Source of the DNA: Prevotella sp.
Lineage (GTDB): Bacteria > Bacteroidota > Bacteroidia > Bacteroidales > Bacteroidaceae
DNA length: 64,000 bases
Direction: 5' to 3'
Assembly (NCBI GenBank): GCA_017474845.1
Contig: JAFVGS010000049.1
Span: 1-64,000, forward strand
The position numbers were made by a program, and so were the translations under genes. A model generated the notes under the pieces. It did no database searches and was not told the origin of the DNA. It worked only from the letters and a program-made list of their open reading frames with translations. Positions 3,164 through 63,624 of the stretch are shown here, piece by piece. The stretch's first letter is position 1, and each line of letters begins with the position of its first letter.

Positions 3164-3190
3164 AACGAATTAGACGAATTAAACGAATTT
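3164..3190 (+). repeat. Three 9-bp tandem units abutting the alcohol dehydrogenase start
   Basis: AACGAATTA, GACGAATTA and AACGAATTT run head to tail and end at the base before the ATG at 3191. This is one of the cleanest cases of the start-codon repeats described in the findings. Confidence 0.85.
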
Positions 3191-4375
3191 ATGAAGGATT
3201 TTAATTATTACGCACCGACGGAAGTGGTGTTCGGAGAGAAGAGTGAGGAGCAGGTGGCTGCTCTGGTGAAGAAATATGGCGGCACCAAGGTGCTGGTGCA
3301 TTATGGCGGTCAGAGTGCCGTGCGCTCGGGACTGCTCGACAAGATCTGCGGCCTGCTCAGCGAGGGTGGGGTAGACCATGTCACGTTGGGCGGCGTCGTG
3401 CCCAATCCCCGTCTGTCGCTGGCGCAGAAGGGCATCGAGCTCTGCCGCAAGGAGGGTGTGGACTTTATCCTCGCCGTGGGTGGCGGTTCGGTCATCGACT
3501 CGGCGAAGTGTATCGCCTATGGCGTGCCTTACGAGGGCAACGTGTGGGACTTCTATCTCGGCAAGGACGAGCCAAAGCACATGCTGCCAGTGGCTTCCGT
3601 GCTGACCATTCCCGCTGCGGGTTCGGAGATGAGCGAGGCGAGCGTGATCACCAACGAGGACGGCGACGTGAAGTTGGGCTACTCGAACAACATGTCGCGC
3701 CCGAAGTTCGCCATCATGAATCCCCGTCGCACGATGACCCTGCCCCCGTATCAGACGGCAGCCGGCGTGACCGACATGATGATGCACACGATGGAGCGCT
3801 ACTTCACCAAGGACGACGACATGGACTTCACCACCGACCTGGCCGAGGCCGCGCTGCGGAGCATCAAGGCGGCCATCTTCGCCGTGCTGAAGAATCCCGA
3901 GGACTATCGCAACCGAGCCCAGATCATGTGGGGCGGCAGCGTGATGCACAACGGTCTGACGGGCTGTGGCGTCAGCGACGACTGGGCCACGCACCAGCTG
4001 GAGCACGAGCTGAGTGGCATGTTCGACGTGACCCACGGTGCCGGACTGGCCGCCATCTGGCCGTCGTGGGCCCGCTATGTGATGCACGAGAACCTGAGCC
4101 GCTTCGTGCGTTTCGCCGTGAATGTGATGGACGTGCCCAACGACTTCACCGATCCCGAGGGAACGGCCCTGAAGGGTGTCGAGGCGATGGAACGCTTCTA
4201 CCACGCCATCGGCATGCCCATCAACATCAAGGAACTCATCGGCCGCGACATCACCGACGCAGAGATTGCTGAGATGACACGTAAGTGCAGCCGTGACTAT
4301 ACGTCGACCTGTGGCTGCCTGAAGGTGCTGAAGGCCGAGGATATGGAGGCCATCTACAAGCTGGCACGAGGCTGA
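3191..4375 (+). CDS. Iron-containing alcohol dehydrogenase (butanol dehydrogenase/YqhD type)
   Basis: A 394-residue group III alcohol dehydrogenase that should reduce aldehydes to alcohols with NAD(P)H in the cytosol. The nucleotide-binding GGGSVIDSAK begins at residue 97. The four metal ligands fall at D195, H199, H268 and H282, with the same spacing as in E. coli YqhD. The C-terminal all-helical domain is complete. The gene lies 31 bases after the Gfo/Idh gene and 27 bases before the GH9 gene, which fits one transcript. Its likely role is disposal of reducing power or detoxification of aldehydes; the physiological substrate is unknown. Confidence 0.9.
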   Translation: MKDFNYYAPTEVVFGEKSEEQVAALVKKYGGTKVLVHYGGQSAVRSGLLDKICGLLSEGGVDHVTLGGVVPNPRLSLAQKGIELCRKEGVDFILAVGGGSVIDSAKCIAYGVPYEGNVWDFYLGKDEPKHMLPVASVLTIPAAGSEMSEASVITNEDGDVKLGYSNNMSRPKFAIMNPRRTMTLPPYQTAAGVTDMMMHTMERYFTKDDDMDFTTDLAEAALRSIKAAIFAVLKNPEDYRNRAQIMWGGSVMHNGLTGCGVSDDWATHQLEHELSGMFDVTHGAGLAAIWPSWARYVMHENLSRFVRFAVNVMDVPNDFTDPEGTALKGVEAMERFYHAIGMPINIKELIGRDITDAEIAEMTRKCSRDYTSTCGCLKVLKAEDMEAIYKLARG

Positions 4376-4402
4376 TATTGAATCATCAAAAGATACACAA
4401 AA

Positions 4403-7030: not shown

Positions 7031-7059
7031 ATGGTACATGGTAAATTGTCAAATTGTAC

Positions 7060-8286
7060 ATGAGGGAGCGGCTTTGGAACAGGAACTATATCAAGGTAAT
7101 GATGGCGAACTTCTCGCTGTTCTTCGCCTTCTATGTCCTGACGCCACTGCTGCCGCTCTACCTGAGTGAACATTTCGGCGCAACAAAGGACGTGATAGGC
7201 CTCGTACTCTCGGGCTACACCATCACGGCTTTGTTGTGCCGGCCTTTCAGCGGTTACATCGTCGACTCCTTCTCGCGCAAGACGGTGCTGATGGTCTGCT
7301 TCGGCACCTTCGCCATCTTCTTTGCCGGCTATCTCGCTGCATCGACCCTGTTGCTGTTCACGATTGTGCGTACCCTGCACGGCGGACCCTTCGGTGCCCT
7401 GACCGTCTCCAACTCGACCGTCGCCATCGACGTGCTGCCCTCCAGCCGCCGTACGGAGGGCATCGGCTACTATGGTCTGTCGAACAACCTGGCGATGGCC
7501 ATCGCGCCCACCGTCGGCATCTTCATCTATAAGTTTACCGCCAGCTTCGAGCTGCTCTTCTGGCTGGCCCTGCTCGTGGCCTGCCTCGGATGGCTGGTCG
7601 ATGCCACGGTGACTTTGCCCTCGAAGGAAATCGTCCGAAACAAGACGAAGTTGTCGATGGACCGTTTCTTCCTCGTCAGAGGCTGGCTCCTCGGTCTGAA
7701 CATGGTGGCGTTCGGCTTCAGTTTCGGCGTGCTGAGCAATTACCTGGCCATCTACGGCAAGGAGGTGATGGGCATTACCGGCGGCACGGGCACCTACTTC
7801 ATGCTCTGTTCCGTCGGACTGATCCTCTCGCGCCTGCAGGGTGGCAAGGCCCTCCGCGAAGGACGGCTCACCTTCAATGCCGGCTCCGGCATGGTCATCT
7901 CCCTCGTCGGCTACACCTTATTCATTCTGATGCCGACGCTCGAACAATTATCCATTGTCAATTATCAATTATCCATTGCCCTCGGCTACTACGGCTCCGC
8001 CCTCCTCATCGGTCTCGGCAACGGACATATGTGGCCCGCCTTCCAGAACATGACCATCAACGTGGCCCGTAACAACCAGCGTGGCACCGCCAACTCCACC
8101 ATTCTCATCTCCTGGGACATCGGCATGGGACTCGGCATCCTCGTCGGTGGCGTCATCTCCGAGATCCTCGGCTACGGCGCTGCCTTCTGGACCGTCGTCC
8201 TCGTCAACGCCGCAGGTGTCGCCTGCTTCTTCCTCGCCACCAGGGTGTTCTTCCTCCAGCGTAACCTGAACCCTACGGTCCACTGA
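7060..8286 (+). CDS. MFS transporter
   Basis: A 408-residue major facilitator protein with twelve predicted membrane segments. The loop between segments 2 and 3 reads RPFSGYIVDSFSRK, the classic MFS loop motif. The ATG at 7060 is preferred to the TTG at 7054. The substrate may be a sugar or an oligosaccharide because the upstream gene is GH9, but drug-efflux relatives look much the same. Residues 297-307 (LSIVNYQLSI) are encoded by a repetitive AT-rich stretch (7946-7978) that resembles the repeats found between genes here, placed in frame between two membrane segments. Confidence 0.85.
   Translation: MRERLWNRNYIKVMMANFSLFFAFYVLTPLLPLYLSEHFGATKDVIGLVLSGYTITALLCRPFSGYIVDSFSRKTVLMVCFGTFAIFFAGYLAASTLLLFTIVRTLHGGPFGALTVSNSTVAIDVLPSSRRTEGIGYYGLSNNLAMAIAPTVGIFIYKFTASFELLFWLALLVACLGWLVDATVTLPSKEIVRNKTKLSMDRFFLVRGWLLGLNMVAFGFSFGVLSNYLAIYGKEVMGITGGTGTYFMLCSVGLILSRLQGGKALREGRLTFNAGSGMVISLVGYTLFILMPTLEQLSIVNYQLSIALGYYGSALLIGLGNGHMWPAFQNMTINVARNNQRGTANSTILISWDIGMGLGILVGGVISEILGYGAAFWTVVLVNAAGVACFFLATRVFFLQRNLNPTVH
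7946..7978 (+). repeat. In-frame AT-rich repeat inside the MFS gene
   Basis: Imperfect repeats of AATTATC and CATTGTC cover 33 bases, a multiple of three, in an otherwise GC-rich gene. The same words recur between genes at 9382-9420. It looks like an insertion of an intergenic-type repeat that kept the frame. Confidence 0.7.
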
Positions 8287-8363: not shown

Positions 8364-9383
8364 ATGAAACAGACATTTCTGATGCTGCTGGTCGCTGTGC
8401 TGGTATGCAGTTGCGGTGGAAAAGGTAAGAGGGAGACAAAGGCTCCCACTCGTGTGAAGACGCAGATGGTGTCGCCGGGATTCGTGGATAATGCCCAGCC
8501 ATACGTGGGCATCGTCGAGGAACGGGAGGCAACGGCTGTCAGTTTCACGGGTATGGGCGTGGTGAAGCGGATGCTGGTCAGCGAGGGCCAGGCCGTGAGT
8601 CGCGGTCAGTTGATTGCGGAGATGGACGACACGCAGGCCCGTAACCTCCTGGCCAGTGCCGAGGCCGACATGACGCGTGCCGACGACGCCTTGCAGCGTT
8701 ATGGTATGCTGCACGAGAACGGCTCGCTGCCCGAGGTACAATGGGTGGAGCTGCAGAGCAAGGTGGCCCAGGCGAAATCACAGCTTGAGGTGGCGAAGAA
8801 GAATCTGGCCGACTGTCAGCTGACGGCGCCCGTGAGCGGCATCGTCGGCAAGAAGATGATCGGGGCCGGGGAGACCGCCATGCCCTCGCAGGCCGTGGTG
8901 AATATTCTCGACATCTCGACGGTCAAGGTGAAGGTGGCCATCCCCGAGGCAGAGATCGGCAGCGTCAGTCCAAATACCCGTTCGTCGGTCTTCGTGGCGG
9001 CTATCGACCGCAGCTATGAGGGTGGAAGGATAGAGAAGGGTGTGACGGCCGACGCGCTGACACATACCTATGACATCCGTATCAACGTGACGAACACGGA
9101 CCGCCGGTTGCTCCCCGGTATGGTGGCCAGCGTGAAGTTCACGCCTGAAGGCTCGTCGTCTCTCAGCGGCAAGTCGATCCCTGTGGCGTCGGTTCAGAAA
9201 GGTTCTGACGGCTCGCTCTTCGTCTGGGTCATTGACAAGGACAGCACCGTACACCGTTCTACGGTGACGCTTGGCAGCACGCGTGGCAATTATATATCTG
9301 TCGTGGACGGCATCAGCCTCGGTCAGCGTATCGTCATAGAAGGCTATCAGAAGTTGAGCGACGGCACGAAAGTGATATTTTAA
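8364..9383 (+). CDS. RND efflux periplasmic adaptor (membrane fusion protein)
   Basis: A 339-residue lipoprotein adaptor. The signal ends in LVCSC (Cys17). The lipoyl-like halves are visible at about 55-85 (GMGVVKRMLVSEGQAVSRGQ) and 150-175 (LTAPVSGIVGKK), separated by a short helical hairpin. A beta-barrel and a membrane-proximal domain follow (SIPVASVQKG). It should join the pump encoded next to the TolC-like protein encoded third. Its own promoter starts the operon. Confidence 0.9.
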   Translation: MKQTFLMLLVAVLVCSCGGKGKRETKAPTRVKTQMVSPGFVDNAQPYVGIVEEREATAVSFTGMGVVKRMLVSEGQAVSRGQLIAEMDDTQARNLLASAEADMTRADDALQRYGMLHENGSLPEVQWVELQSKVAQAKSQLEVAKKNLADCQLTAPVSGIVGKKMIGAGETAMPSQAVVNILDISTVKVKVAIPEAEIGSVSPNTRSSVFVAAIDRSYEGGRIEKGVTADALTHTYDIRINVTNTDRRLLPGMVASVKFTPEGSSSLSGKSIPVASVQKGSDGSLFVWVIDKDSTVHRSTVTLGSTRGNYISVVDGISLGQRIVIEGYQKLSDGTKVIF

Positions 9384-9420
9384 TTGACAATTGATAGTGG
9401 ATAATTGAAAATTGACAATT
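9384..9420 (+). repeat. Imperfect tandem repeat between adaptor and pump genes
   Basis: Units of the form AATTGACAATTG, ATAATTGAAA and ATTGACAATT fill the whole gap and end at the base before the ATG at 9421. A TTG at 9412 within it would extend the next frame but is not a credible start. Confidence 0.75.
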
Positions 9421-12400
9421 ATGAAGGAGATGAATTGGCTGAAGTGGCCATTGGAACATTATCCGATATCGCTGCTCATCATCGCTATCCTGTTCGTGCT
9501 GGGTGTCTTTGGTATGTGGGACATGCCGAAGGACGAGTTCCCGCATGCGACCATCCGTCAAGGTGTGGTGGCGGCCGTCTATCCCGGTGCCACGAGCGAG
9601 GAGGTGGAGCAGCAGGTGGCGCGCCCCTTGGAGCGTTACCTCTTCACATTCGGTGAAGTGAACCGTGTGAAGACGACGACACAGTCGCAGAACGGCCTGT
9701 GTATCGTGATGGTGAAGCTGAACGACGACGTGAACAACAAGGACGAGGTGTGGAGTAAGATCAAGCACGGCCTGAACGGATTCAAGATGCAGTTGCCCAG
9801 CGGTGTGCTCGGCATCGTGGTGAATGATGACTTCGGCAATACCTCGGCCCTGCTCATCGCCATCGAGAGTGACCAGCGGAGCTATCGTGAACTGAAGGAG
9901 TATGGTGACAACCTCTCAGACCGTCTGCGCCGCATCCCCTCCGTGGCGAACGTGAAGCTGTTCGGTGAACAGAAGCAGCAGATCTCGCTCTATATAGACC
10001 GTCAGCGGATGCAGGCCTACGGCATCGGACAGCAGCTGCTCTTCAGCCGTCTGCAGGCGCAGGGTCTCACCACCATGAGTGGCAGCATCAACGATGATGA
10101 CCAGCAGATACCCATCTACGTGGAGGCGACGGAGAATTCGGAAGATGAGATTGCCAACCAGATCATCTTCTCCGATCCTGTCACCGGCAAGGTGGCCAGG
10201 GTGAGGGACGTGGCCAGGGTGGTGAGGGAATATGACTCACATGCAAGCCGCATCGAGCAGGACGGCCATCCGTGTATGCTCATCTCGATGGAGATGACGC
10301 CAGGCAACAATGTGGTGCAGTATGGTGAGGAGGTGGACAAGGTGCTCAGCGACTTCCGCCAGAACGAACTGCCCGCCGACGTGAAGGTGACGCGTATTGC
10401 CGACAAACCGAAGGTGGTGAGCCTGAGTGTGACCAACTTCCTGCGCGACCTCTTCGTGGCAATGATCATTATCGTCATCGTGATGATGGTGCTCTTCCCC
10501 CTGCGCTCGGCTATCGTCGCCGCCATCACCATCCCGCTGAGTACGTTCGTCTCGGTGGCGGTGATGTTTATGGCGGGCATTGAACTGAACATCGTCACCT
10601 TAGCGGCGCTCATCGTAGTATTAGGAATGATTGTGGACAACTCAATCGTGGTCATCGACGGCTATCTGGAATACCTCAACAAGGGCTACGAACCCAAACG
10701 CGCGGCCATCGACTCGGCCAAGCAGTATTTCATGCCGATGATGCTCGCCACAATCTGTATCTGTGCCATCTTCTTCCCCTTCCTCATCACGCTGAAGGGT
10801 ATGTTCCTCGACGCCATGCATGACTTCCCGTGGACCATCACCATCAACCTGATGGTGTCGCTGGTGCTGGCCGTGACGGTCATCCCCTTCCTGGAGGTGA
10901 AGATCATCAAGCCGGGTAAGGTGAGTACCGACGGCAACGCCATCACGAAGTGGGTGCAGAGGACGTACGACAAGGCGCTCGACTGGACATTCCGTCATCC
11001 GATGCTGACCATCACGGGCGGTATTGCGGTTGTCCTGATTTCGTTGCTCATCCTGCCGACGCTGAAGGTACGCCTGTTCCCGTTTGCTGACCGCGACCAG
11101 TTTGCCGTGGAGATCTTCCTGCCCGACGGCAAGGGACTGGCAGAGACGGAACTGATTGCCGACTCTGTGCATCACGTGCTGGAGAAGGACGACCGCGTGG
11201 TGGGCATCACGGCCTTTCTCGGCTGTTCGTCGCCACGCTTCATGGATGCCTATGCGCCACAGTTGGCAGGTAATAACTTCGCCCAGTTCATCGTGAACAC
11301 CACGGACGAGTATGCCACACTCGACCTGCTGGCCAAATACCAGCCGATGCTGAGCGAGGCCTTCCCCAATGCCTACGTGAAGTTCAAGAGGCTGGACTAT
11401 CTGGAGGTGCCCGAACTGGAATACCGCTTCTATGGCGACAATCTCGACTCGCTTCACGTTGTGGCCGACCGACTGATGGAACGGATGCGGCAGATGCCCG
11501 ATCTGGAGTGGGTGCATACCGACTATCTACAGCCCTATCCAATCATCAACGTGAAGCTCGATCCTGTGACGTCGGCACAGTTGGGTATCACCCGTACGAC
11601 GGCCCAGTTGGCGTTGACAGCTACGTCGAGCGACCTCCGGGTGGGACAGATCTGGGAGGATAACTATGAGCTGCCCATCGTGGTGAAGGACGATGCCGAC
11701 ATGACCTTCGCCGGTATTGCCAACCTCGGCATCGCGTCGCCTACGTCGATCCTCTCGTCAGGATTGCGCAGCACCAACAGCACCGTTCCCCTGCGTTCGA
11801 TTGCCCAGGTGACTCCCCGCTGGACAGAGAGTCGCATCATGCACCGTGGCGGTGAACGCTGCATCACGGTGACGGGACACTTCCGCCAGGGCATTTTCAC
11901 GGCTCCAGTAGAGACCGAGGTGGCGCGGATCATGCAGGAGGAGATTCTCCTGCCGCAGGGGGTGCGCACGGAGGTGGGCGGTGAGATAGAGTATGGCGAC
12001 GAAGCCATTCCGCAGATTGTCGGCGGCATGGCTATCGCCCTTGTCATCGTGTTCTTCTTCCTGTTGTTCAACTTCCAGAAGTATGGTATCACGCTGGTGT
12101 GTATGGCAGCCCTCGGACTCATGATTCCCGGAGCGCTGATCGGTCTGGGACTGATGAACCGTGCCTTGGGCCTGACCTCTATCTTTGGTCTGATCACGCT
12201 GATGGGTATGATCATGCGTAACGAGATCCTCATCTTTGAACATGCCATCGACCTGATTAATAAATATGTGGCCGAGCATGGTGACTGGACCGTCGACCGT
12301 CAGGGCTACAACGAGGCGGTGAAGCAGGCGGCCTACGATGCCGGTAAGCGGCGTATGGTGCCCATCTTCCTCACCACGGCCACGACGGCTGTGGGTGTGG

Positions 12401-12534
12401 TACCGATGATTCTCGCCCAAAGCTCGTTCTGGATGCCTGTGGGTGTCACCATCTTCGCCGGTGGTATCGGTTCGCTCATCATGGTAGTCATGATGCTGCC
12501 TGTGGTTTATTGGAAAGTGTCAACTAAAAAATAA
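9421..12534 (+). CDS. RND family efflux pump, inner-membrane permease
   Basis: A 1037-residue AcrB/MexB-like permease with the usual duplicated plan: segment 1 near residue 20, a large periplasmic loop, segments 2-6 around 340-540, a second loop, then segments 8-12 at the end. Segment 4 reads GMIVDNSIVVID, so the proton-relay pair is Asp-Asn where AcrB has Asp-Asp. It should export drugs, bile salts or similar compounds by proton antiport together with its neighbours. The gap to the TolC-like gene is only 6 bases. Confidence 0.92.
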   Translation: MKEMNWLKWPLEHYPISLLIIAILFVLGVFGMWDMPKDEFPHATIRQGVVAAVYPGATSEEVEQQVARPLERYLFTFGEVNRVKTTTQSQNGLCIVMVKLNDDVNNKDEVWSKIKHGLNGFKMQLPSGVLGIVVNDDFGNTSALLIAIESDQRSYRELKEYGDNLSDRLRRIPSVANVKLFGEQKQQISLYIDRQRMQAYGIGQQLLFSRLQAQGLTTMSGSINDDDQQIPIYVEATENSEDEIANQIIFSDPVTGKVARVRDVARVVREYDSHASRIEQDGHPCMLISMEMTPGNNVVQYGEEVDKVLSDFRQNELPADVKVTRIADKPKVVSLSVTNFLRDLFVAMIIIVIVMMVLFPLRSAIVAAITIPLSTFVSVAVMFMAGIELNIVTLAALIVVLGMIVDNSIVVIDGYLEYLNKGYEPKRAAIDSAKQYFMPMMLATICICAIFFPFLITLKGMFLDAMHDFPWTITINLMVSLVLAVTVIPFLEVKIIKPGKVSTDGNAITKWVQRTYDKALDWTFRHPMLTITGGIAVVLISLLILPTLKVRLFPFADRDQFAVEIFLPDGKGLAETELIADSVHHVLEKDDRVVGITAFLGCSSPRFMDAYAPQLAGNNFAQFIVNTTDEYATLDLLAKYQPMLSEAFPNAYVKFKRLDYLEVPELEYRFYGDNLDSLHVVADRLMERMRQMPDLEWVHTDYLQPYPIINVKLDPVTSAQLGITRTTAQLALTATSSDLRVGQIWEDNYELPIVVKDDADMTFAGIANLGIASPTSILSSGLRSTNSTVPLRSIAQVTPRWTESRIMHRGGERCITVTGHFRQGIFTAPVETEVARIMQEEILLPQGVRTEVGGEIEYGDEAIPQIVGGMAIALVIVFFFLLFNFQKYGITLVCMAALGLMIPGALIGLGLMNRALGLTSIFGLITLMGMIMRNEILIFEHAIDLINKYVAEHGDWTVDRQGYNEAVKQAAYDAGKRRMVPIFLTTATTAVGVVPMILAQSSFWMPVGVTIFAGGIGSLIMVVMMLPVVYWKVSTKK

Positions 12535-13889: not shown

Positions 13890-14723
13890 CTATTCTTTCT
13901 TGCCGTTGATGGTGTAGTCGAGTGCTGCGCCAATGGCGGTGCAATACTGTGAGTACTTGGGGATATGGAAGCGGATGTCGTAGAGCTTCTCCAAGGCGGG
14001 GAATACCTCCTTGCATTGAGGCAGCAGCGATAGGTTGCCGATGAGCACGAAGTCGCGAATGTCGCTGCCTAATGAGGCGAGCCAGGCGGCGGAGCCGATC
14101 GATTGCAGTACCATCTTAATGATGCCGGCGGCAATATCCTCCTTCGAGGCGTCGCTCTGTGCACGGGCGAAGTTCGAAGCCGTCGTGTCCATGGGCAGTC
14201 CGGGTAACGGCTGGGCGCTGATGTCACCGATGGTCAGGTCGATATTGCGGATGTTTCCCTGTTTGGCCATGGTCGCCACCTGCTTGATGTCGCTGGTGTT
14301 AAGCATGATACGGGCCAGTCCTGCAAGTGTACCGCCTCCTACGCCGATACCGCCGATATGACGCATATCGTCGCCGTCGCACTTCACAAACGAGGTACCT
14401 GTCCCCATCGAAACGACGATGGTATGGTCGAGCTTCGACTCGAAGCGGGCACCAAGACCGTCGGCGATGAACTCCTGCGATTTTGCCGTTGACAGTCCGT
14501 AAATGGGTTGGTCGATATAGGCAGCACCCACACCGGTGAGCATCACCTGTTCCACCTCTTTCAGGTCGATATCGTTGTCGTGCAGATACTTGCCGAAAGC
14601 GCCATAGAGTGAGGTGATGGGGTCGGCAGCGGTGATACGGATTGGCGCAGATACCTTTCCGTTCTTGATTCCTACGATCTTTGTGGTGGAGATGCCCACG
14701 TCAATACCAATGACAATTCCCAT
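13890..14723 (-). CDS. coaW: Type II pantothenate kinase
   Basis: A 277-residue ASKHA-fold kinase that should phosphorylate pantothenate, the first step of coenzyme A synthesis. Visible motifs are the phosphate-1 loop GIDVGISTTK near the N terminus, VSMGTGTSFV, and the adenosine-site glycine run GGGTLAGL. The length fits the staphylococcal-type PanK-II family. The ATG at 14723 is chosen over a TTG nine bases upstream that lies inside a repeat. It appears to be a single-gene unit on the minus strand. Confidence 0.85.
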   Translation of the reverse strand: MGIVIGIDVGISTTKIVGIKNGKVSAPIRITAADPITSLYGAFGKYLHDNDIDLKEVEQVMLTGVGAAYIDQPIYGLSTAKSQEFIADGLGARFESKLDHTIVVSMGTGTSFVKCDGDDMRHIGGIGVGGGTLAGLARIMLNTSDIKQVATMAKQGNIRNIDLTIGDISAQPLPGLPMDTTASNFARAQSDASKEDIAAGIIKMVLQSIGSAAWLASLGSDIRDFVLIGNLSLLPQCKEVFPALEKLYDIRFHIPKYSQYCTAIGAALDYTINGKKE

Positions 14724-14760
14724 AATGTTCAATGTTTAGTGTTCAATGATCAATGTTCAA
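14724..14760 (-). repeat. Tandem repeat abutting the pantothenate kinase start
   Basis: Read on the minus strand, units built on CATTGAACATTG run up to the base before the ATG at 14723. The unit differs from those at other junctions. Confidence 0.75.
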
Positions 14761-16057: not shown

Positions 16058-16920
16058 TCTTCTGTGGGGTGATCGGTGTTGAATTTCTCCTTTTGCTGGC
16101 TCTCAACCTGTTCTGACCGTACGATCATCTCCCTCATAATCGTTGTCATCAGCGGTTGGGCCCTGTTGGCTGCTTTCTGCACTCCTTCGTGGCTGACCTC
16201 TACGGGGGCGTTGAAACCGCCAAGGTCGGTGATGATGGAAATACCGAAAGTGCGGATGCCACAATGATGGGCCACGATAACCTCCGGCACGGTGGACATG
16301 CCGACGGCGTCACCACCCAAGATGCGATACATCTTATATTCGGCAGGCGTCTCAAAGGTGGGACCTTGCACACCGACATAGACACCGTATTTCACCCTTA
16401 TCTTATTCTCACGGGCAATCTCCGTTGCGAGCTTAATCAGTTTCTGGTCATAAGCCTCGTGCATGTCAGGGAAGCGGGGGCCTGTAGGGAAGTTCTTGCC
16501 ACGGAGCGGATGCTCGGGGAAGAAGTTGATGTGGTCGGTGATAATCATCAGGTCGCCTACATGGAAGCTCTCGTTCATGCCTCCTGACGCATTACTGACG
16601 AAGAGTGTCTTGATGCCCAGTTCATACATCACACGGACAGGGAAGGTCACCTCTTTCATCGAGTAGCCCTCATAGAAATGGAAACGGCCCTTCATAGCCA
16701 TGATATCCACGCCGCCGAGCTTGCCGAAGATCAGCTTGCCGCTGTGGCCTTCTACCGTCGATACGGGGAAGTTGGGAATCTCCGAATAAGGGATTTCGAG
16801 GGTGTCAGTTATTTCTGAAGCTAATTGTCCGAGGCCTGTCCCCAGGACGATCGCAGTCTTTGGGTTTGTGGTCATCCGGCTTTTTAGCCAGGATGCTGTT
16901 TCTTGAATTCTTTCGTACAT
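16048..16920 (-). CDS. punA: Purine nucleoside phosphorylase (trimeric PNP family)
   Basis: A 290-residue enzyme for phosphorolysis of purine nucleosides in salvage. It contains AIVLGTGLGQL (phosphate loop), VEGHSGKLIFG, MKGRFHFYEGY, VSNASGGMN and GVQGPTFETPAEY, all typical of the trimeric inosine/guanosine type. Its first 116 bases overlap the end of lpxK in another frame. It also overlaps thiL by 10 bases. Confidence 0.93.
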   Translation of the reverse strand: MYERIQETASWLKSRMTTNPKTAIVLGTGLGQLASEITDTLEIPYSEIPNFPVSTVEGHSGKLIFGKLGGVDIMAMKGRFHFYEGYSMKEVTFPVRVMYELGIKTLFVSNASGGMNESFHVGDLMIITDHINFFPEHPLRGKNFPTGPRFPDMHEAYDQKLIKLATEIARENKIRVKYGVYVGVQGPTFETPAEYKMYRILGGDAVGMSTVPEVIVAHHCGIRTFGISIITDLGGFNAPVEVSHEGVQKAANRAQPLMTTIMREMIVRSEQVESQQKEKFNTDHPTEEWK

Positions 16921-18010
16921 AATTGATAATACTTTGATTGAATGTATTCTCCTGCTCGAGCAGGATCTGGATCTTGATAGGCAGGACGTAGAGACGGCTC
17001 TTCACCTCGTCGCTCAGACCATCCACCTGCTTCAGGCGGGTCTCGTCTTTCTCCGTCGTGACGATGAGCTTGGGCGATGGGAGGGCATTGAATGCTTCGT
17101 TGATACGGTCCACATCCTTCTTCTTGAAGTCGTGATGGTCGCTGAAGGCCAACGGAGTCACCTCCTTGGCATAGGTCTTCAGATCGATCAGCATCTGCTC
17201 GGGTGAGGCGATGCCTGTCAACAATAGGACGTTCTTGTCAGCCAGGGATTCTGATAATGTCTGGGAAATCTCAGCATTTGGAGCAGTCGGGAATACCGGT
17301 CTCAATGTCCCAAACTCATGGGTGGAGAAGAAGAGTTGCTGGTAGGGATAGAGGCCCATCGCCTTGGTGATGACGCGAAACTCCATGGGTTTCAGGTCCT
17401 TCGGACATTTCGTGACGATCACGATGTCGGCGCGGTTCTTGCTCACCACAGGTTCTCTGAGACGTCCAGCCGGCAGCAGCTTGTCATAGATAATCAGACG
17501 GTGGTAGTCGACGAGCAGGATGTTGATGCCCGGTTTCACATAGCGGTGCTGGAAGGCATCGTCGAGGAGGATGACATCGATGTCCTTGACATAGTCCCCG
17601 CTGGTCAGCTTCTCGATGCCTCGGGTGCGTTTCTTGTCCACCGCTACGGTAATATCAGGGAACTTCGTTTTCATCTGGTATGGCTCGTCGCCGATGGTGC
17701 GGACGGTTGCATCGTCACCAGCCAACACGAAACCGCTGGTCTTACGTTTATAGCCCCGGCTCAGCACGGCCACTTTCGCATGGTCCTTCAGCAGACGGAC
17801 CAGGTATTCCACATGTGGGGTCTTGCCGGTGCCGCCGACGGTGATGTTACCGACGGAGATGACCGGTGTACTGTACGGACGGCTTTTCAGGATGCCCATC
17901 TCGAAGAGCAGGTTCCTGAAACCGACGCCCCAACCGTAGAGCCAGCTCAGTGGCAACAGCTTCTTGTTAATGCTGATGAGGTCGCCCTCGATTCTGTCCT
18001 TACCTAACAC
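16805..18010 (-). CDS. lpxK: Tetraacyldisaccharide 4'-kinase (lipid A synthesis)
   Basis: A 401-residue enzyme that should phosphorylate the lipid A disaccharide at the inner membrane. The P-loop is in GNITVGGTGKTPHVEY, and LDDAFQHRYVKPG and VTTEKDETRL follow. The N-terminal LPLSWLYGWG is the usual membrane-associated helix. The start is GTG at 18010, because an in-frame TGA lies six bases upstream. The C terminus runs about 39 codons into punA, an unusually long overlap. Confidence 0.9.
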   Translation of the reverse strand: MLGKDRIEGDLISINKKLLPLSWLYGWGVGFRNLLFEMGILKSRPYSTPVISVGNITVGGTGKTPHVEYLVRLLKDHAKVAVLSRGYKRKTSGFVLAGDDATVRTIGDEPYQMKTKFPDITVAVDKKRTRGIEKLTSGDYVKDIDVILLDDAFQHRYVKPGINILLVDYHRLIIYDKLLPAGRLREPVVSKNRADIVIVTKCPKDLKPMEFRVITKAMGLYPYQQLFFSTHEFGTLRPVFPTAPNAEISQTLSESLADKNVLLLTGIASPEQMLIDLKTYAKEVTPLAFSDHHDFKKKDVDRINEAFNALPSPKLIVTTEKDETRLKQVDGLSDEVKSRLYVLPIKIQILLEQENTFNQSIINYVRKNSRNSILAKKPDDHKPKDCDRPGDRPRTISFRNN

Positions 18011-18036
18011 TTCTCACCTTTTCACTTTTTCACCTT
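18011..18036 (-). repeat. Tandem repeat directly before the lpxK GTG start
   Basis: On the minus strand units such as AAGGTGA, AAAAGTGA and AAAGGTGA lead into the GTG start. The same words occur at 28801-28832 and, in frame, inside the pectin mega-protein gene at 57615-57647. Confidence 0.75.
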
Positions 18037-18040: not shown

Positions 18041-19855
18041 TTATTTTACTCTCACGTCCTCAAGCATGCGGGTCTGGAGCGTGTTGCCGTTCTTCACGGT
18101 CTGACGGATCTCCATCACAGGCTCGTAGAGGTCACCGAGCAGGGCCTTCAACTCTTCCTGCAGCTTACCGTCGAGATACGAACCCTTGTTCTTCTCATCT
18201 TTCGACAGGAAGGTGTCGAGCCAGTTACCCTTGTCGGGATAGCTCTTAGTATGATATTCTTTGGTCTTGGCGAGTTCGGCGGCCTTCTTCACGGCATCGT
18301 CCAGACTACCAATCTGGTCGACGAGCTTGATCTTGATGGCATCGGTAGCCAGCCATACACGGCCCTGGGCGATGGAGTCGACCTGCGCGGGCTTCATGCC
18401 ACGACCTTCGGAGACGATGTTGAGGAAGTTCTGGTAGCCGCGGTCTACGTAGGTCTGCATATGTGCCATAATCTCGCCGGGATCCTTCCCGAGAACCAGG
18501 TCGGTCTCGTAGTCAGAATATTTATTGGTGGTCACACCGTCGAAGGTCACGCCGAGCTTGTCCTGCACCAGTCCGCTGAGGTTGGGGATTAGTCCGAAGA
18601 TACCGATGCTGCCGGTGATAGTCGTCGGCTCGGCAACGATGCAGTTGGCGGGTGAACTGATCCAGTAGCCGCCGGAGGCAGCGGCGCCACCCATCGATAC
18701 CACCACAGGCTTCTTGGCCTTGACCAGTTTGACGGCATGGCGGATCTGCTCAGAGGCAACGGCGCTGCCGCCGCCCGAGTTCACACGGAACACCACGGCC
18801 TTCACGTCATCATCGTCGGCCAACTTCCGAAGATCCTCAGCCGTCGTCTTGCCCACGATGCAGTGGCCTCCGCCGTTGATCAGGTTTGTGACCTCGCTGT
18901 CAACGATGCTGCCGAAGGCGTAGTAGACGGCAATCTGGTCACCGTCGTCGTTCTTCTCTGTCTTCACGTTCAGCATGTCGGCGAGGGTCAGCTGGTGAAT
19001 CTCGTCGTCCTTGCCGAGTTTCAGGCGTTCCTTGATCTCTGCCTTGAGCTCTTCGGGATACAGGATCTTATCGACGAGCTTGGCTGTCAGATAGTCATCG
19101 GGGTAGGCAAAAGCCATGATGCTGTCGTTGGCCAGCTGATTCAGCTGCTCTGTAGTCACCTTACGGCTCTCGGCAATCTCCTTCAACCAGTACTGCCAGA
19201 TGCCATTCAGGTAGGCCGTGCGCTGCTCACGGTCGTAGTCGCTCATGCCTGTCAGCGTGTTGCGCTCCACATAACTCTTATATTTGCCTACCTTCGCAGT
19301 CAGGTACTTCACGCCGATTTTGTCGTAGAGTCCTTTCAGATACTCGCCCTTGCCACCAAGACCTTTGAAGTCGACATTACCCTCGGCATTCAGGTACACC
19401 TTGTCGGCCACGGAGACCACGTAGTAGTTTGCCTGCATATACTGGTCGGCGTAGGCCACGATCCACTTGCCGCTCGTCTTGAAGTCCTTTAGGGCGTCGC
19501 GCAGCTGCTGGGCGGTGGCGGGGGCGTCGAACTCCGTCAGACCGCCTTCCAGGTAGATGCCCTTGATGTCGTCGTTGTCCTTGGCCTTGCGGATGCTGGC
19601 AATGAGGTCGTCGAGGCCCATGGCACTCATGTCATTCATGCCGAGCACGGCGTCGAAGGGCGTACTACCTTCAGCCCGTTCGCTGATGGTACCGCTGAGT
19701 TTGATCACGAACACCGAGTTGTCCTCCACCTTGGTCGGAACTGATTCGCTGGCCAGCATACCGGCGAGTGAGATGACGAGGAAGAGTCCCGTTATAAGCA
19801 GGAAAATCGCAATGCCACAGACGGTGGCGAGTGTCATTTTAAAGAACTGTTTCAT
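18041..19855 (-). CDS. sppA: Signal peptide peptidase SppA, 67-kDa type
   Basis: A 604-residue duplicated ClpP-fold serine protease anchored by an N-terminal membrane segment (about 8-33). It should degrade cleaved signal peptides at the inner membrane. The catalytic Lys is K193 in GKYKSYVERN and the Ser is S394 in AAASGGYW, in the N- and C-terminal repeats as in E. coli SppA. VNSGGGSAVASEQI (359-370) is the second-repeat active-site strand. It is first in its operon, with a promoter at 19889-19920. Confidence 0.93.
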   Translation of the reverse strand: MKQFFKMTLATVCGIAIFLLITGLFLVISLAGMLASESVPTKVEDNSVFVIKLSGTISERAEGSTPFDAVLGMNDMSAMGLDDLIASIRKAKDNDDIKGIYLEGGLTEFDAPATAQQLRDALKDFKTSGKWIVAYADQYMQANYYVVSVADKVYLNAEGNVDFKGLGGKGEYLKGLYDKIGVKYLTAKVGKYKSYVERNTLTGMSDYDREQRTAYLNGIWQYWLKEIAESRKVTTEQLNQLANDSIMAFAYPDDYLTAKLVDKILYPEELKAEIKERLKLGKDDEIHQLTLADMLNVKTEKNDDGDQIAVYYAFGSIVDSEVTNLINGGGHCIVGKTTAEDLRKLADDDDVKAVVFRVNSGGGSAVASEQIRHAVKLVKAKKPVVVSMGGAAASGGYWISSPANCIVAEPTTITGSIGIFGLIPNLSGLVQDKLGVTFDGVTTNKYSDYETDLVLGKDPGEIMAHMQTYVDRGYQNFLNIVSEGRGMKPAQVDSIAQGRVWLATDAIKIKLVDQIGSLDDAVKKAAELAKTKEYHTKSYPDKGNWLDTFLSKDEKNKGSYLDGKLQEELKALLGDLYEPVMEIRQTVKNGNTLQTRMLEDVRVK

Positions 19856-20359: not shown

Positions 20360-20384
20360 ATTTTTAGTTTAAAGAAACAAATTC

Positions 20385-22123
<1,739 letters not shown>

Positions 22124-44359: not shown

Positions 44360-44818
44360 CTATTTCTTTCCGATAAACTCGTACTTGAATTCGTAGTTCT
44401 TACGGCCCACCTTCTGACTGATGGTGAAGGAGGTCGTCATATTACCGTTCTCATCTATTCTACCAGAGAATGCTACGCCCAGTTTATTGGCATCGCTGGC
44501 AGTCTGGTTGAAGAACTGATAGCCATAGTTGGCGTGCCAAACGTTTGCAATCGAGGTGGCATCGAGAGATGTCTCAGGGCAGGAGAAGGTGACATTGGTC
44601 ACATTGGCTTCACTGCCAGCAGCAAGTGTTACAGTTCCGCTGTATGTCTCGGAGCCGTCATCACCAGTACGGGTCCATGTGCCGCTGTACGTGCCTGCAG
44701 AACCCTGGGCAGCCGTCTTGTCGTAGTTGATGACGGGATCGTCATTGTCGTCGCCACAAGCTACGAAGGTGCAGCTGAGTGCGAGAGCGGCTATTGCTGA
44801 AAAGATATATTTCTTCAT
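44360..44818 (-). CDS. Small lipoprotein, calycin-like
   Basis: A 152-residue lipoprotein (signal ends FVACGDD, Cys18) with a beta-rich body: GTYSGTWTRTGDDGSETYSG, then FSGRIDENGNMTTSFTI and a final NYEFKYEFIGKK strand. The strand pattern resembles calycin-like lipoproteins of Bacteroidales. It follows SusD by 34 bases and ends at a terminator, so it is probably the last gene of the SusC/D transcript and may help bind the glycan. The ATG at 44818 is used in place of a TTG inside the repeat. Confidence 0.7.
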   Translation of the reverse strand: MKKYIFSAIAALALSCTFVACGDDNDDPVINYDKTAAQGSAGTYSGTWTRTGDDGSETYSGTVTLAAGSEANVTNVTFSCPETSLDATSIANVWHANYGYQFFNQTASDANKLGVAFSGRIDENGNMTTSFTISQKVGRKNYEFKYEFIGKK

Positions 44819-44850
44819 AATTTTCAATCTTCAATGTTCAATAATCAATC
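44819..44850 (-). repeat. Tandem repeat abutting the small lipoprotein start
   Basis: On the minus strand words ATTGATT, ATTGAACATT and GAAGATTGAAAATT run to the base before the ATG at 44818. Confidence 0.7.
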
Positions 44851-44852
44851 TA

Positions 44853-46694: not shown

Positions 46695-46734
46695 ATCTTC
46701 TTTACTTCTTTAACTTCATTAACTTCTTAACTTC
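46695..46734 (-). repeat. GAAGTTAA tandem repeat abutting the susD start
   Basis: On the minus strand GAAGTTAA, GAAGTTAAT, GAAGTTAAA, GAAGTAAA and GAAGAT run into the ATG at 46694. Confidence 0.88.
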
Positions 46735-46740: not shown

Positions 46741-49700
46741 TTAGAACTTAATGCTTGCGCCAACCTGATAGTTGATGGTGCTAGGACCATCCTGCTTAAC
46801 ACCTGCACCTGCCCACTCTGGGTCGAAGCCTTTGTAGCCAGTGAAGACGAACGGATTGGTAATCGTTGCATAGAGACGAAGGTGCTTGCAGCCGATCTTG
46901 TTGAGGAGATTCTTCTCGAAAGTGTAGCCTAACGTGATGTTCTTCACCTTCATGAAGGTGGCATCGACGACACCCTTGGCTTGGTTCCATTCTGAAGCCT
47001 GACGGCCAACACCGCCGCTGCTACCACCGTTGTTGGGGAAGGGATACTCACCGTAGTGAGTGGTCTCCTGATACTTCGGATTGATGTAGGTGCCGTCAGG
47101 ATTCACGCCGTCGCAGTCAATCAATGTACCAGCAGGGATGTACCAGTCCATGTTCAACTTCTGACGACCACGGTCACTGAGGTCAACGATGTTACTGGTC
47201 AGGAAGGAAGAATAAACCTTATAGCCCACCTTGGCATAGAGGGAGAACGAGAAGTCCCAGTTCTTCCAGCTGAGGTTAGAGGTGAAGCTACCCGTAAAGT
47301 CAGGATCCATGCTCGTGATGGTGCGGTCATCCGGATTGATGTTGCCATCGCCGTTCTGGTCGACTACCCATGGCTGACCCTCAGTCAGACCGTAAACCTT
47401 ATAGTAATAATCATACTCCTTCATGGTAGAACCTGGTGTCAGGCCAGCATTCTTAGCTGCCATATTATCAGGAACCGTCATGTCGCGGTCAGAGACGATG
47501 CCGCCCCATTCGTAAGCATATACGTTGTTGGCAGAATAGTCGACGAACAGGTTGCCTGTCGTACCAGAGCTGAGCACTCTGTCACCAGTACCGTTAATCT
47601 CGCGTACCCTATTCTTATTATGTGAGAAGGTGAGGGTGGTCTCCCAGTGCCAGTCCTTGTTCTCAATGTTGATGGTGGTCAATGCGATTTCAATACCAGT
47701 ATTGCGGACAGATCCGACGTTGGTCACCATCGTGCCGCCACCAGAGACGAGCGGAAGCTGGACGGGGAAGAGCAGATCTTTAGATGTCTTCTGATAGAAA
47801 TCGATGCTACCGTTGATGCGGCCACCGATGAAACCGAAGTCGATACCGGCATTGTACTCGGTAGAGGTCTCCCACTGCAGATCCTTATTCACAATGCTGG
47901 AGGCTGTATAGCCAGTGTTGTATGAGCTTCCGAAAGGATAGCTGATAGGACTTGAGAGTGTCTGCTGAGTATCGTAGGCACCGATACCGGTGTTGTTACC
48001 AGTCACACCGTATGAAAGACGGAGCTTCAAGTTGCTGAGCCAATTGCTGGCTTTCTGCATGAATGGCTCTTCAGAGATACGCCAGGCAGCAGCTGCAGAG
48101 GGGAATGTACCCCAGCGGTTGTCCTTGGTGAACTTCGAGCTGCCATCACGACGGATGGTGGCGGTCACCAGGTACTTACCCTTATAGCTGTAGTTTAAGC
48201 GCGCAGCATAAGATATCATACTCGTTTCACTGTAGCCGGATCCGAAACTGGCAAGTGCAGTTGCACCGTCAGAATTCTTTGCCGTACCGATATTCCACCA
48301 ATCAGTATGCTCCAACACGTCAGTACCTCCCATGCTGATCTTCTCCGTATTGCTGGCCTCTGAAGAGAATAACAGCATTACACCGATGTTGTGATCATTG
48401 GCGATGGTGGTGTTGTAGTTAAGGATGTTGTCCCATGTCCAAGAGAAAGAACGATTAGTTGTCAGACTTGCAGAGTTCTGAGACAGTCCAGAATCGTAGA
48501 AGTTTCCGTCTTCATCCTTGTATCCCTCGAAGTAGCCCTCACGATAGTTGTTATAGCTGGGAGAGAAGGTGGTCTTGAAGTCCAGACCCTTGATGATGTC
48601 AAATTTCACGTAGAAGTTTCCTAATACTCTCCAGGTCTCACGCTCATTTTTGGTGCTCTGCATCTTGAGTAGCGGGTTGGGCTCGTCAGAGAACTGGTAG
48701 GAAGCTGTACCCAAAGCCTGGTAGTTACCGGGCTTGGCATACGGTTTGCCATTGGCATCGTATGGAGTCATATAGGGGTTCATGCGGAAAGCACTCTGAA
48801 TGGCTGCGTCGTTGGCATAGTCGTTCTCGAGACGGGCTGCGTTAAAGCTGAATCCTGCACTCACGACCTTGTTGATCTTGGCATCGATACTTCCCTTGAA
48901 GTTAATGCGGTTAGACTTATCGCCTTTGTAGACGCCTTCTTCACCGTTGTAACCAACACCGATATGATAGTTGATGTTTTCACTACCACCGCTGACAGCT
49001 AAGTAATGGTTCTGCTGGCTACCGTTCTGGGTCACCATGTCGGGCCAGTCGTAAGTGTTACCGCTGGCGAGCATTTCCTTCATGCGGTAGGCTCCTGAAC
49101 CCTCGGCCTCACGAAGCAGACACTGCTCCAGGATGGAACCACCGATCTGGTAGGCGGGGTGTGAAGAGTTGGCTGTGGTGGCTGTAGCACCATTACCTGC
49201 GTAGGTCAGGAACTTCATGAAACGGAAGTTGTAGAACTGCTGTCCGTCCATGAACTCCGGTAAGCGGGCGGTCTTCGACCAGCCGTAGTATCCGTCGTAG
49301 CTGATGGTTGGCTTCTGGTCGCTCTTCGACTTCACGGTCACACCGCCCTTGGTGGTCACCATGACGACACCTGCCGTAGCACGGCTACCATAGATAGCAG
49401 TAGAAGAAGCATCCTTCAGCACGTCGATGCGCTCAATGTCCTGCGGGTTCAGCCAGTCGATATCATCACACATGACACCGTCAACCACATAGAGTGGGGT
49501 GGTCTTAGAGTTAATAGACGACTTACCACGGATCTCAATGCTGTAGCTGCCGCCACGACCAGAGGTCTGGGTGATGTTCACACCAGGGTTGCTACCCTGC
49601 AGGTTACCCAGCACAGAGGGAGCACCCTTCGCATTCAGCTGTTCGGTGTTCACGGATGATACAGAACCCGTCAGGTCCTGCTTCTTCATCGTACCGTAAC

Positions 49701-50028
49701 CCACGACAACCACGTCCTGAAGGGTCGTGGCGTCTTCCTTGAGGACTACGTTAACACTTGTCTTACCAGCGACATTGACATCCTGCGACTGCATACCGAT
49801 GTACGAAATCGTAAGCACATTGCCACTCTCCAATTTAATGGTGAAGTTACCGTCGAAGTCCGTCACTGTGGCATTCTTGGTACCTTTCTCCATTACAGTA
49901 GCGCCGATGACGGCCTCGCCCGTTTCATCGACCACATTTCCTGTCACCGTCTGTGCAGATACAGTGCCTATGAAAAGGCTGAGTACCAACATTAGCGCGA
50001 TGCGGAACGCTTTTAAATTACCTTGCAT
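46741..50028 (-). CDS. SusC/RagA family TonB-dependent outer-membrane transporter
   Basis: A 1095-residue importer. A signal peptide (cleaved after GTVSA, residue 25) is followed by a carboxypeptidase-D-like domain (about 27-105, VTGNVVDETGEAVIGATV), a TonB-box/plug region (DVVVVGYGTMKKQDLTGSV, then YVVDG and IERIDVLKDASSTAIYGSR) and a 22-strand barrel ending in an aromatic residue. It should import pectin fragments with SusD. It has its own promoter and a LacI-type palindrome upstream. Confidence 0.96.
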   Translation of the reverse strand: MQGNLKAFRIALMLVLSLFIGTVSAQTVTGNVVDETGEAVIGATVMEKGTKNATVTDFDGNFTIKLESGNVLTISYIGMQSQDVNVAGKTSVNVVLKEDATTLQDVVVVGYGTMKKQDLTGSVSSVNTEQLNAKGAPSVLGNLQGSNPGVNITQTSGRGGSYSIEIRGKSSINSKTTPLYVVDGVMCDDIDWLNPQDIERIDVLKDASSTAIYGSRATAGVVMVTTKGGVTVKSKSDQKPTISYDGYYGWSKTARLPEFMDGQQFYNFRFMKFLTYAGNGATATTANSSHPAYQIGGSILEQCLLREAEGSGAYRMKEMLASGNTYDWPDMVTQNGSQQNHYLAVSGGSENINYHIGVGYNGEEGVYKGDKSNRINFKGSIDAKINKVVSAGFSFNAARLENDYANDAAIQSAFRMNPYMTPYDANGKPYAKPGNYQALGTASYQFSDEPNPLLKMQSTKNERETWRVLGNFYVKFDIIKGLDFKTTFSPSYNNYREGYFEGYKDEDGNFYDSGLSQNSASLTTNRSFSWTWDNILNYNTTIANDHNIGVMLLFSSEASNTEKISMGGTDVLEHTDWWNIGTAKNSDGATALASFGSGYSETSMISYAARLNYSYKGKYLVTATIRRDGSSKFTKDNRWGTFPSAAAAWRISEEPFMQKASNWLSNLKLRLSYGVTGNNTGIGAYDTQQTLSSPISYPFGSSYNTGYTASSIVNKDLQWETSTEYNAGIDFGFIGGRINGSIDFYQKTSKDLLFPVQLPLVSGGGTMVTNVGSVRNTGIEIALTTINIENKDWHWETTLTFSHNKNRVREINGTGDRVLSSGTTGNLFVDYSANNVYAYEWGGIVSDRDMTVPDNMAAKNAGLTPGSTMKEYDYYYKVYGLTEGQPWVVDQNGDGNINPDDRTITSMDPDFTGSFTSNLSWKNWDFSFSLYAKVGYKVYSSFLTSNIVDLSDRGRQKLNMDWYIPAGTLIDCDGVNPDGTYINPKYQETTHYGEYPFPNNGGSSGGVGRQASEWNQAKGVVDATFMKVKNITLGYTFEKNLLNKIGCKHLRLYATITNPFVFTGYKGFDPEWAGAGVKQDGPSTINYQVGASIKF

Positions 50029-62918: not shown

Positions 62919-62926
62919 CACTCGAT

Positions 62927-63592
62927 ATGCCGATACATATACCTATTAATATTTTGGATTTCATCTTCAAGGGGATGATGATCGGGATGATTGCAAGTGC
63001 CCCGATGGGCCCCGTCGGTATCCTTTGTGTGCAGCGGACGCTGAACAAAGGACGCTGGTATGGTATGGCCACTGGAGTGGGTGCTGCTGTCAGCGACATC
63101 CTGTATGCCGGCTTTGCAGGCTTCGGTATGTCGTTCGTCATGGACCTGATCAACAACGACCAGAATCGCTTCTATCTGCAGATGGGCGGTAGTATCATGC
63201 TGCTGTGCTTCGGCCTGTACACGTATAAGACCGACCCTACGAAGAAGATGCATAAGTCTGGACAACAGAAGGGAACGCTGTGGTATAACACGTGGACGGC
63301 GTTCCTCGTGACGTTCTCCAACCCGCTGATCATTTTCCTGTTCCTGGCCCTCTATGCCCAGTTCGCCTTCGTGTTGCCCGACCATCCGTTTGAGATGCTC
63401 GTAGGCTTTGCCAGTATCGTGGGCGGTGCCCTGCTGTGGTGGTGGGGACTGACTTGGCTGGTGGACCGCATCCGCACGAAGTTCGATACGGCGGGCATCC
63501 GCATCATCAATCAGATCATCGGTGTGGCCGTGATCATCGTCTCTGTCTTGATGCTGTTAGGCCTGACAACCAACCTGATCCGCTTTTTCTGA
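62927..63592 (+). CDS. LysE family exporter
   Basis: A 221-residue inner-membrane protein with six predicted segments. The first carries IASAPMGPVGILCVQRTL, the family signature, and ATGVGAAVSDILYAGFAG follows; the second half has TFSNPLIIFLFLALYAQF. LysE-type proteins export amino acids or related compounds. The substrate is unknown. It is transcribed from its own promoter with a leader of only a few bases. Confidence 0.88.
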   Translation: MPIHIPINILDFIFKGMMIGMIASAPMGPVGILCVQRTLNKGRWYGMATGVGAAVSDILYAGFAGFGMSFVMDLINNDQNRFYLQMGGSIMLLCFGLYTYKTDPTKKMHKSGQQKGTLWYNTWTAFLVTFSNPLIIFLFLALYAQFAFVLPDHPFEMLVGFASIVGGALLWWWGLTWLVDRIRTKFDTAGIRIINQIIGVAVIIVSVLMLLGLTTNLIRFF

Positions 63593-63624
63593 CGACAACT
63601 ATGACAACATAGACAACTCGAAAT
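63591..63624 (+). repeat. Three 9-bp tandem units before the DUF4924 gene
   Basis: GACGACAAC, TATGACAAC and ATAGACAAC, then TCGAAAT and the ATG at 63625. The first unit overlaps the upstream stop codon. Confidence 0.85.

Follow-up and report, generated by a model that had tools for sequence, protein, structure and literature searches.

The window analysed here is a 64-kb stretch of a 2.15-Mb metagenome-assembled genome (59% complete) of a Prevotella species, whose closest named records are those of rumen Prevotella / Xylanibacter ruminicola, and many of its gene junctions carry short tandem arrays, commonly of 7- to 9-base units. These arrays probably belong to dispersed, species-specific repeat families that are copied into gene ends, replace the spacers or arrays found there and, by prediction, are retained by selection as Shine-Dalgarno (SD)-free spacers between one stop codon and the next start. 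If so, the coupling of operon genes would be open to fast, one-step change in a phylum largely without SD pairing.

The first-pass annotation of the window, made from the sequence alone, listed twelve such places; an array is present at all 12 by Tandem Repeats Finder (TRF) and inspection of the sequence, two of them (7033 and 63591; TRF scores 33 and 36) being weak. The enrichment over a shuffled control that it anticipated is also found. In a 689-kb survey of the source genome, in which an array is a tandem self-match with a score of at least 10 and upstream spacers of at least 25 nt are considered, 52 of 308 spacers carry an array, compared to 0.81% of dinucleotide shuffles. Genes were called with our own simple codon-usage caller, which is a caveat. 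The 109.6 kb of intergenic DNA holds 115 arrays vs 4 in shuffled gaps of 20-3000 nt (four contig stretches that read N are omitted from this and later counts in the source genome). Periods 7, 8 and 9 are the commonest in a scan of 2-25 (25, 26 and 23 arrays), while periods 2-6 together account for 3 arrays and period 6 for none.

The arrays have a restricted distribution. Two isolates, Prevotella sp. ne3005 and X. ruminicola D31d, carry them in 13/93 and 7/85 spacers (shuffles, 1.7% and 0.5%), and distant members of the genus are poor in arrays (1/98 in G016, 2/74 in G024 and 0/63 in six distant congeners), as are fourteen other families of the order (2/101). Array density per 10 kb of intergenic DNA is 10.5, 8.5 and 4.5 in three carriers and 0.4-2.0 elsewhere. 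The pattern AATTGAN in three tandem copies is found in 62 of the 119 genomes examined within the genus, with as many as 234 matches in a single genome, and in 12 of 80 genomes of the class, the source genome included; the reversed control pattern is missing from most genomes, yet occurs 29 times in one. AATTGAN counts as a burst family in G129, G126 and G092. An assembly artefact is rejected as the source of the arrays, because isolates carry them and control junctions of the same loci align.

Whole-array exchange is clearest at one junction, between the GT1 and GH57 genes of a glycogen operon (36394/36434 in the window). This junction was retrieved from 77 of 80 relatives (3 lie at a contig edge and are left out), and an array lies in the last 60 nt of the spacer (at most 200 nt) in 60 of the 74 called junctions; the isolates ne3005, KHT3, D31d and P6B1 are likewise array-bearing here. 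The unit differs among species (AATAACG, GGTAAAAAAGTAAA, GTTAAGAATTAAGA, AATTGAAAATTGAT, ATTAAAC, AATTGTA and others), and sister species have unrelated arrays despite flanks that are 95-98% identical. For example, the window and locus L057 share a flank identity of 0.983 and a spacer identity of 0.55. Alleles with a spacer of 25-60 nt (51, from the 74 called junctions plus the window) form 25 pairs whose 120-nt flanks are at least 95% identical; spacer identity is at most 0.60 in 64% of these pairs and at least 0.80 in 20%. By contrast, at two control junctions in this operon such low spacer identity occurs in 0% of 50 pairs (with the initial 60 nt of the downstream gene as flank) and in 4% of 53 pairs, with identity of at least 0.80 in 58% and 92%. 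In some cases distinct species do have one array in common at the GT1-GH57 junction (L062 and L072; L111 and L120).

The arrays of the window are as follows.

3164 to 3190, plus strand: 9-bp array ACGAATTA, which follows a MocA-type oxidoreductase gene (2164-3159) and precedes the ATG (3191) of an iron alcohol dehydrogenase gene.
7031 to 7059, plus strand: weak 7-bp array (TRF score 33) that fills the gap before the start of an MFS transporter gene (7060).
7945 to 7977, plus strand: heptamer array CAATTAT within the MFS transporter gene (7060-8286), encoding QLSIVNYQLSI.
9384 to 9420, plus strand: heptamer array AATTGAC that fills the gap between an HlyD-type (8364-9383) and an AcrB-type gene (9421-12534).
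14724 to 14760, minus strand: heptamer array CATTGAA immediately ahead of the ATG of gene 13890-14723.
18011 to 18036, minus strand: 8-bp array AAGGTGAA in the gap that separates an S49 peptidase gene (18041-19855) from the GTG of an LpxK-type gene (16805-18010).
20380 to 20460, plus strand: direct and inverted CCATAAT units in the spacer before a Cpn60 gene (20492), not abutting its start.
24793 to 24844, plus strand: two 10-bp arrays, CCATAATAAA and AATAATTACG, before a GMP-synthase gene (24889), ending 44 nt from its start.
28801 to 28832, minus strand: heptamer array in a divergent gap (28686-28964).
32031 to 32068, plus strand: 7-bp array AAATCGT at the end of an IPP-transferase (miaA-type) open reading frame (ORF; 31133-32068), abutting the next ATG (32070).
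36393 to 36433, plus strand: 8-bp array AAATAACG that fills the junction of the GT1 (35123-36394) and GH57 (36434-37804) genes.
44819 to 44851, minus strand: heptamer array ATTGAAN separating a SusD gene (44853-46694) from gene 44360-44818.
46697 to 46734, minus strand: 8-9 bp array GAAGTTAAA separating gene 46741-50028 from the SusD gene.
63594 to 63618, plus strand: weak 9-10 bp array (TRF score 36) between a LysE-type gene (62927-63592) and an ATG at 63625.

Eight of these arrays can be compared with G240, the close sister genome to which locus L057 belongs and whose main DNA matches to the window are 87-95% identical. The same array is kept at 3164, 44819 (one substitution) and 46697 (identical). 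The arrays at 9384 and 14724 are each exactly 7 nt, or one unit, shorter in G240 (37 vs 30 nt), so that copy number does change, in line with the slippage suggested in the first-pass annotation. Those at 18011 and 36393 are swapped, the former for GTTTACA units, and that at 32031 is replaced by an element with 9-mer inverted arms. Thus, unit sequence is not conserved between close relatives, with two arrays swapped and one replaced out of eight. Two junctions were also followed across 28 genomes: before 18010 the swap is clear in L251-L253 and the starts in more distant loci are uncertain, while before 3191 few genomes are comparable, the upstream sequence being mostly different.

The units are not private to each site, as the first-pass annotation had supposed. 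Identical units occur in 82 of 1624 pairs of arrays in the source genome, with 6 expected under a letter-permuted null, and of 46 arrays from the two isolates, 33 have a unit that differs from one in the source genome by at most one mismatch (21 expected). Among the matches listed, seven window arrays each recur at 1-12 additional places in G240, at 83-97% identity (12 for 9384, 11 for 32031, 8 each for 7945 and 46697, 5 each for 44819 and 28801, and 1 for 14724; our own count, with 40 of 260 and 40 of 226 candidates scored). The unit of the 36393 array has 5 further matches on 4 contigs of its own genome and occurs in 1 of 10 relatives.

A burst of a single family is found in G240. The heptamer that takes the place of the 36393 array there, AAGTTCAAAGTTCAAA, has 91 matches on 46 contigs of G240 (neighbouring units overlap), 16 in G266, 2, 1 and 1 (the last being the source genome) in three others and 0 in 12 of the 17 genomes. 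Retrieval of 40 stretches (300 kb) of G240 yielded 50 array places: 24 in same-direction gaps, 18 in called coding sequence (some perhaps miscalls) and 8 elsewhere. The same-direction arrays are in the sense orientation in 20 cases and antisense in 4. A non-repeat head, ATCATAAAG, is present at 33 of the 50 arrays (23 as GTAATCATAAAG), whereas the far end varies. It marks 21 of the 24 same-direction arrays and 6 of the 18 that lie within called genes. The head occurs 47 times in all in the 300 kb of G240 and 10 times in 689 kb of the source genome. In 9 of the 20 sense same-direction arrays the stop codon of the upstream gene is the TAA of TAATCAT, and genes with this ending number 12 of 219 in the G240 stretches vs 5 of 491 in the source genome. 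Ten G240 arrays have a candidate orthologous site, of which three align to junctions of the source genome that lack an array: two (L375/L137 and L381 at 5010/L150) are 4-nt gene overlaps in its gene calls, and one (L381 at 3938/L150) is a two-base gap, judged by eye from the alignment, where the caller missed the upstream gene. Of the other sites, one is the swapped 36393 junction and two (L400 and L404) have another array in the relative.

The first-pass annotation placed the array ends at start codons. This agrees with 10 of its 12 places, where arrays end 0-8 bases from a start (a GTG for 18011), and does not hold for the stretches listed at 20385 and 24790, which stop 31 and 43 bases short. 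As the anchor of the arrays, however, the start codon fails. Across 103 arrays in same-direction gaps of three pooled genomes, 58 come to within 8 nt of the upstream stop; for the start the figure is 31, and 39.4 are expected in either case. Of the 61 arrays with at least 40 nt of free room, 20 abut the stop and 2 the start (4.4 expected for each). Thus, the stop codon is the anchor in the roomier same-direction gaps, and contact with starts results from the complete filling of short operon gaps. Gaps of 20-60 nt contain an array in 38 of 117 same-direction cases vs 0 of 23 convergent ones (Fisher p=5e-4); among longer gaps, every orientation has some arrays. Arrays are also located beside promoters, in divergent gaps, as paired inverted arms and within coding sequence.

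Strand is biased at gene ends, where the purine-rich, stop-rich strand of the array is the sense strand. Stops in all three frames are found on the sense vs antisense strand in 21/31 vs 7/31 start-abutting arrays and in 17/31 vs 5/31 stop-abutting arrays; away from gene ends there is no preference (10/41 and 10/41). The array at 32031 to 32068 forms the 3' end of the IPP-transferase ORF and is therefore translated. In the MFS transporter gene the orientation is opposite to that at gene ends, the stop-free strand being the one that is read, and array sequence enters a protein loop in frame. Depending on the species, this loop is encoded by arrays of the CAATTAT, TTCACTC, CTCTCACC or AATGGTC type. 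By eye, the 30 rows compared (window included, L364 missing) comprise 18 array-like loops, 1 doubtful and 7 of another kind, with the loop absent from 4 (L353, L355, L357 and L359). The best 120 of 7999 homologous proteins divide into 58 with QLSIVNYQLSI, 29 with SSFLLPHSSF, 29 with QCSMVNVQWSM, 3 others and 1 unparsed. Outside the loop, proteins P0049 and P0033 share 99.7% identity; their loop types differ, and from the peptides alone both loops would appear to be array-encoded.

Several properties relate the arrays to translation initiation. As had been claimed, array spacers are AT-rich (0.76 vs 0.71 in spacers without an array) and SD-like words are scarce (3% of 38 array spacers, 5% of 79 without an array); an SD function for the arrays is rejected on this basis. 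The low structure attributed to them shows as a slight effect for the leader together with the gene start (-6.47 vs -7.29 kcal/mol for shuffled spacers, p=0.007), with p=0.09 for the spacer alone. Phase was analysed at 85 array junctions (57 from named loci) with 34 distinct downstream genes and weighting per gene: A fills positions -3, -6, -12 and -13 in 0.615 of cells vs 0.506 at random phase (p=0.001), and the A-rich blocks before starts are broad (-3 to -6 and -10 to -14). In Flavobacterium johnsoniae, adenine at these four positions helps translation initiation according to an excerpt of the report (PMC6847099), and array junctions have the adenines of this Kozak-like region of Bacteroidota. 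The idea of a ribosome landing zone thus retains its AT-richness, few SD words and A phase, but its premise of independent local repeats before starts gives way to dispersed, lineage-specific families that are swapped wholesale and also lie away from starts.

To account for these features, one repeat family would arise and then be copied to many gene ends from the head onward, each pasted copy displacing the older spacer or array. A templated copying reaction that starts at the head is proposed because the head is constant and the length and tail are variable. Orientation and phase may be set afterwards by selection on copies near gene ends, whose survival would depend on their providing stop codons and a start region that is rich in adenine and unstructured. 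Arrays are predicted to shape ribosome exit from one gene and start at the next, and so may tune termination and re-initiation between cistrons. A fuller version is conceivable and is offered tentatively: a copy-and-paste system of rumen Prevotella in which a stop-codon head and a heptamer ladder, with its own word in each species, would be pasted at stop-start junctions. Genes that overlap by 4 bases would thereby become spaced and gain both a new stop and a new start context, and operon initiation regions and protein loops would be rewritten in single steps.

A number of observations weigh against copying into gene ends. The arrays at 3164, 18011 and 36393 have no further match in G240 among the matches listed, and the 36393 unit is not enriched among arrays of the same 20-kb locus (6/47 vs 4.9 expected, p=0.36). 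The head was examined in a single family and is missing from 17 of its 50 G240 copies. Four of the ten candidate orthologous sites (numbers 12, 27, 35 and 38) do not align cleanly, and at the aligned sites, where flanks have diverged, no clean target-site duplication is seen. That G240 gained the array, and the source genome did not lose it, is suggested by two states only, with no outgroup to polarise them. Stop codons are seldom in register with the repeat units (6/53 vs 3.1 by chance), the folding effect is small, and A is equally frequent at -4, -5, -10, -11 and -14, so that the four key positions are not singled out.

Arrays might instead have grown in place by replication slippage from a short seed in an AT-rich spacer, their units diverging through slippage and mutation, with selection only keeping spacers unstructured. 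The two arrays that differ by exactly one unit between sisters are consistent with this, as is the dominance of periods 7-9 with 2-6 nearly absent; slippage loops of 7-9 nt would be too large for mismatch repair. Local growth is nonetheless unlikely, since units recur across loci far above the letter-permuted null and whole arrays are replaced between nearly identical flanks; it is further weakened by the common non-repeat head of the single-species burst. Another process to consider is recombination of junction alleles, in which old, rarely arising arrays would move between Prevotella species via conserved flanks. The identical junction arrays of distinct species and the high similarity of the flanks of swapped arrays favour this, and it could account for the loop difference of P0049 and P0033, but the G240 burst, the absence of its unit from 12 of 17 genomes and the array-free orthologous junctions are left unexplained, making recombination an improbable origin of the arrays.

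Quite unlikely is a reading in which the arrays exist for translation initiation as ribosome landing zones and their place before starts is the cause. The phase relative to the start and the presence of arrays in short same-direction rather than convergent gaps support it; however, arrays in longer gaps are anchored by stops, others reside in coding sequence (including the 18 of 50 G240 places in called genes, some perhaps miscalled), divergent gaps and inverted arms, and array-poor Prevotella (G016, G024 and distant species) manage without them. Dispersed families copied into gene ends, with selection acting on the copies, are thus preferred.

Parts of this picture are already in print: heptamer arrays near starts, heptamer arrays near stops, the Borg repeats and a tandem repeat in a Bacteroidales miniature inverted-repeat transposable element (MITE). 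Among the papers listed in searches of an open-access library, no title or abstract describes swapped arrays in Prevotella, and none of these papers was seen to concern wholesale unit exchange at one junction, a head with its own stop codon or an initiation phase. The comparisons that follow draw on excerpts of the reports cited. The Prevotella heptamer arrays consist of head-to-tail 7-base units, intergenic and dispersed through the genome, as expected of a heptamer family. TAACTGA direct repeats, found in Beggiatoaceae, some cyanobacteria and five Bacteroidetes and proposed to have a translational role, are similarly few-unit heptamer arrays, mostly intergenic and in one orientation (PMC4679880). 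They most often end 1 nt before the start, mostly without SD sites, and can overlap the end of the upstream ORF (PMC4679880). One unit dominates in that system and related heptamers are rare as direct repeats (PMC4679880), whereas many families of 7-9 bp coexist in Prevotella; the commonest unit of the source genome accounts for 7 of 115 arrays, so that none dominates, and TAACTGA is not among its 60 most frequent units. Unlike the TAACTGA repeats as excerpted (PMC4679880), the Prevotella arrays swap between sisters, can carry a head, abut stops rather than starts when given room and are phased to Kozak-like positions. The older start-codon observation of Beggiatoa and cyanobacteria is now testable, because sisters with near-identical flanks differ in the array or lack it.

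The heptamers GGGAATC and GGGGAYT of Xanthomonas and Nostoc are likewise located on the sense strand between same-direction ORFs, at most 50 bp from stop codons and including stop overlaps, but are G-rich quadruplex formers of one motif (PMC4692102), while the Prevotella arrays are AT-rich with many motifs. The repeats of archaeal Borgs are also fast-evolving and A-enriched, and occur in gaps and in frame inside ORFs (PMC9879509). Their units are perfect, about 20 nt in the examples, and divisible by 3 within ORFs (PMC9879509), in contrast to imperfect 7-9 nt units common to many loci and an in-gene unit of 7 in Prevotella. BrickBuilt, a MITE of Porphyromonas gingivalis, is similarly from Bacteroidales, intergenic and multi-copy, with a tandem repeat inside an inverted-ended element (PMC4596501). 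It has a 23-bp unit and forms one family with 19 copies in one strain, at least 49 nt from genes (PMC4596501), whereas an inverted partner is absent from most Prevotella arrays, many of which directly adjoin genes. The Prevotella arrays also warn against taking such repeats for conserved regulatory sites on the strength of a single genome.

Some arrays are part of composite elements. Inverted partners occur in 12 of 35 neighbouring array pairs vs 47 of 989 random pairs, and most arrays have none. A strict filter for an array, an AT palindrome and an inverted array identifies 3 elements in 200 kb of G060, a single one in the 200 kb scanned of G062 and another in the 1.39 Mb from named loci, with 0 in the source genome, G016, G024 and two more distant sets; looser elements of this form are seen by eye in the source genome (L147, L152 and L154). 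Intergenic elements of about 165-225 bp in ne3005 (L203 16288-16511, L207 8239-8404 and L209 17917-18084) and D31d (L215 11580-11771) comprise an octamer array, an AT-rich palindrome and an inverted octamer array, with matching arms and an octamer that varies from site to site. Inverted pairs of GAAGTTAA arrays (L144 340-520, L016 5950-6145 and L008 7730-7920) surround a shared core, which starts AAAGGGACATTA or AAAGGACAATA; they form a MITE-like family whose ends are arrays. GC-rich hairpin modules (e.g., CTTGGCAGAGCCAAGCGGCAAAGCCGAGCG) reside inside arrays of L381 (about 3900-3960) and L389 (about 4000-4060), at the transporter loop of L354 and L356 and where G240 corresponds to window 32031, as if arrays were the preferred target of a second, REP-like element.

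Other observations concern neighbouring signals. Arrays of L022 (3856-3883), L009 (7205-7295), L393 (about 3985) and L384 (about 4021) end just upstream of a promoter-like element, which we take to be a -7 element of the TAnnTTTG type. The GH57 junction of L091, L093, L094, L101, L135 and other relatives has no array and instead a leader that ends in GGGGGGATAAGAGGGGGG a few bases before the start and looks like another dispersed element. The junction of the debranching-enzyme and GT1 genes (window 35110-35123), GGAGGAACGACG, is strongly conserved and looks like an SD site, which is unusual for the phylum. A scan of Rfam at the gathering threshold returns only a tRNA. The gap between two minus-strand genes at 41593-41881 holds two longer tandem arrays, of 22-bp and 21-bp units (41662-41807).

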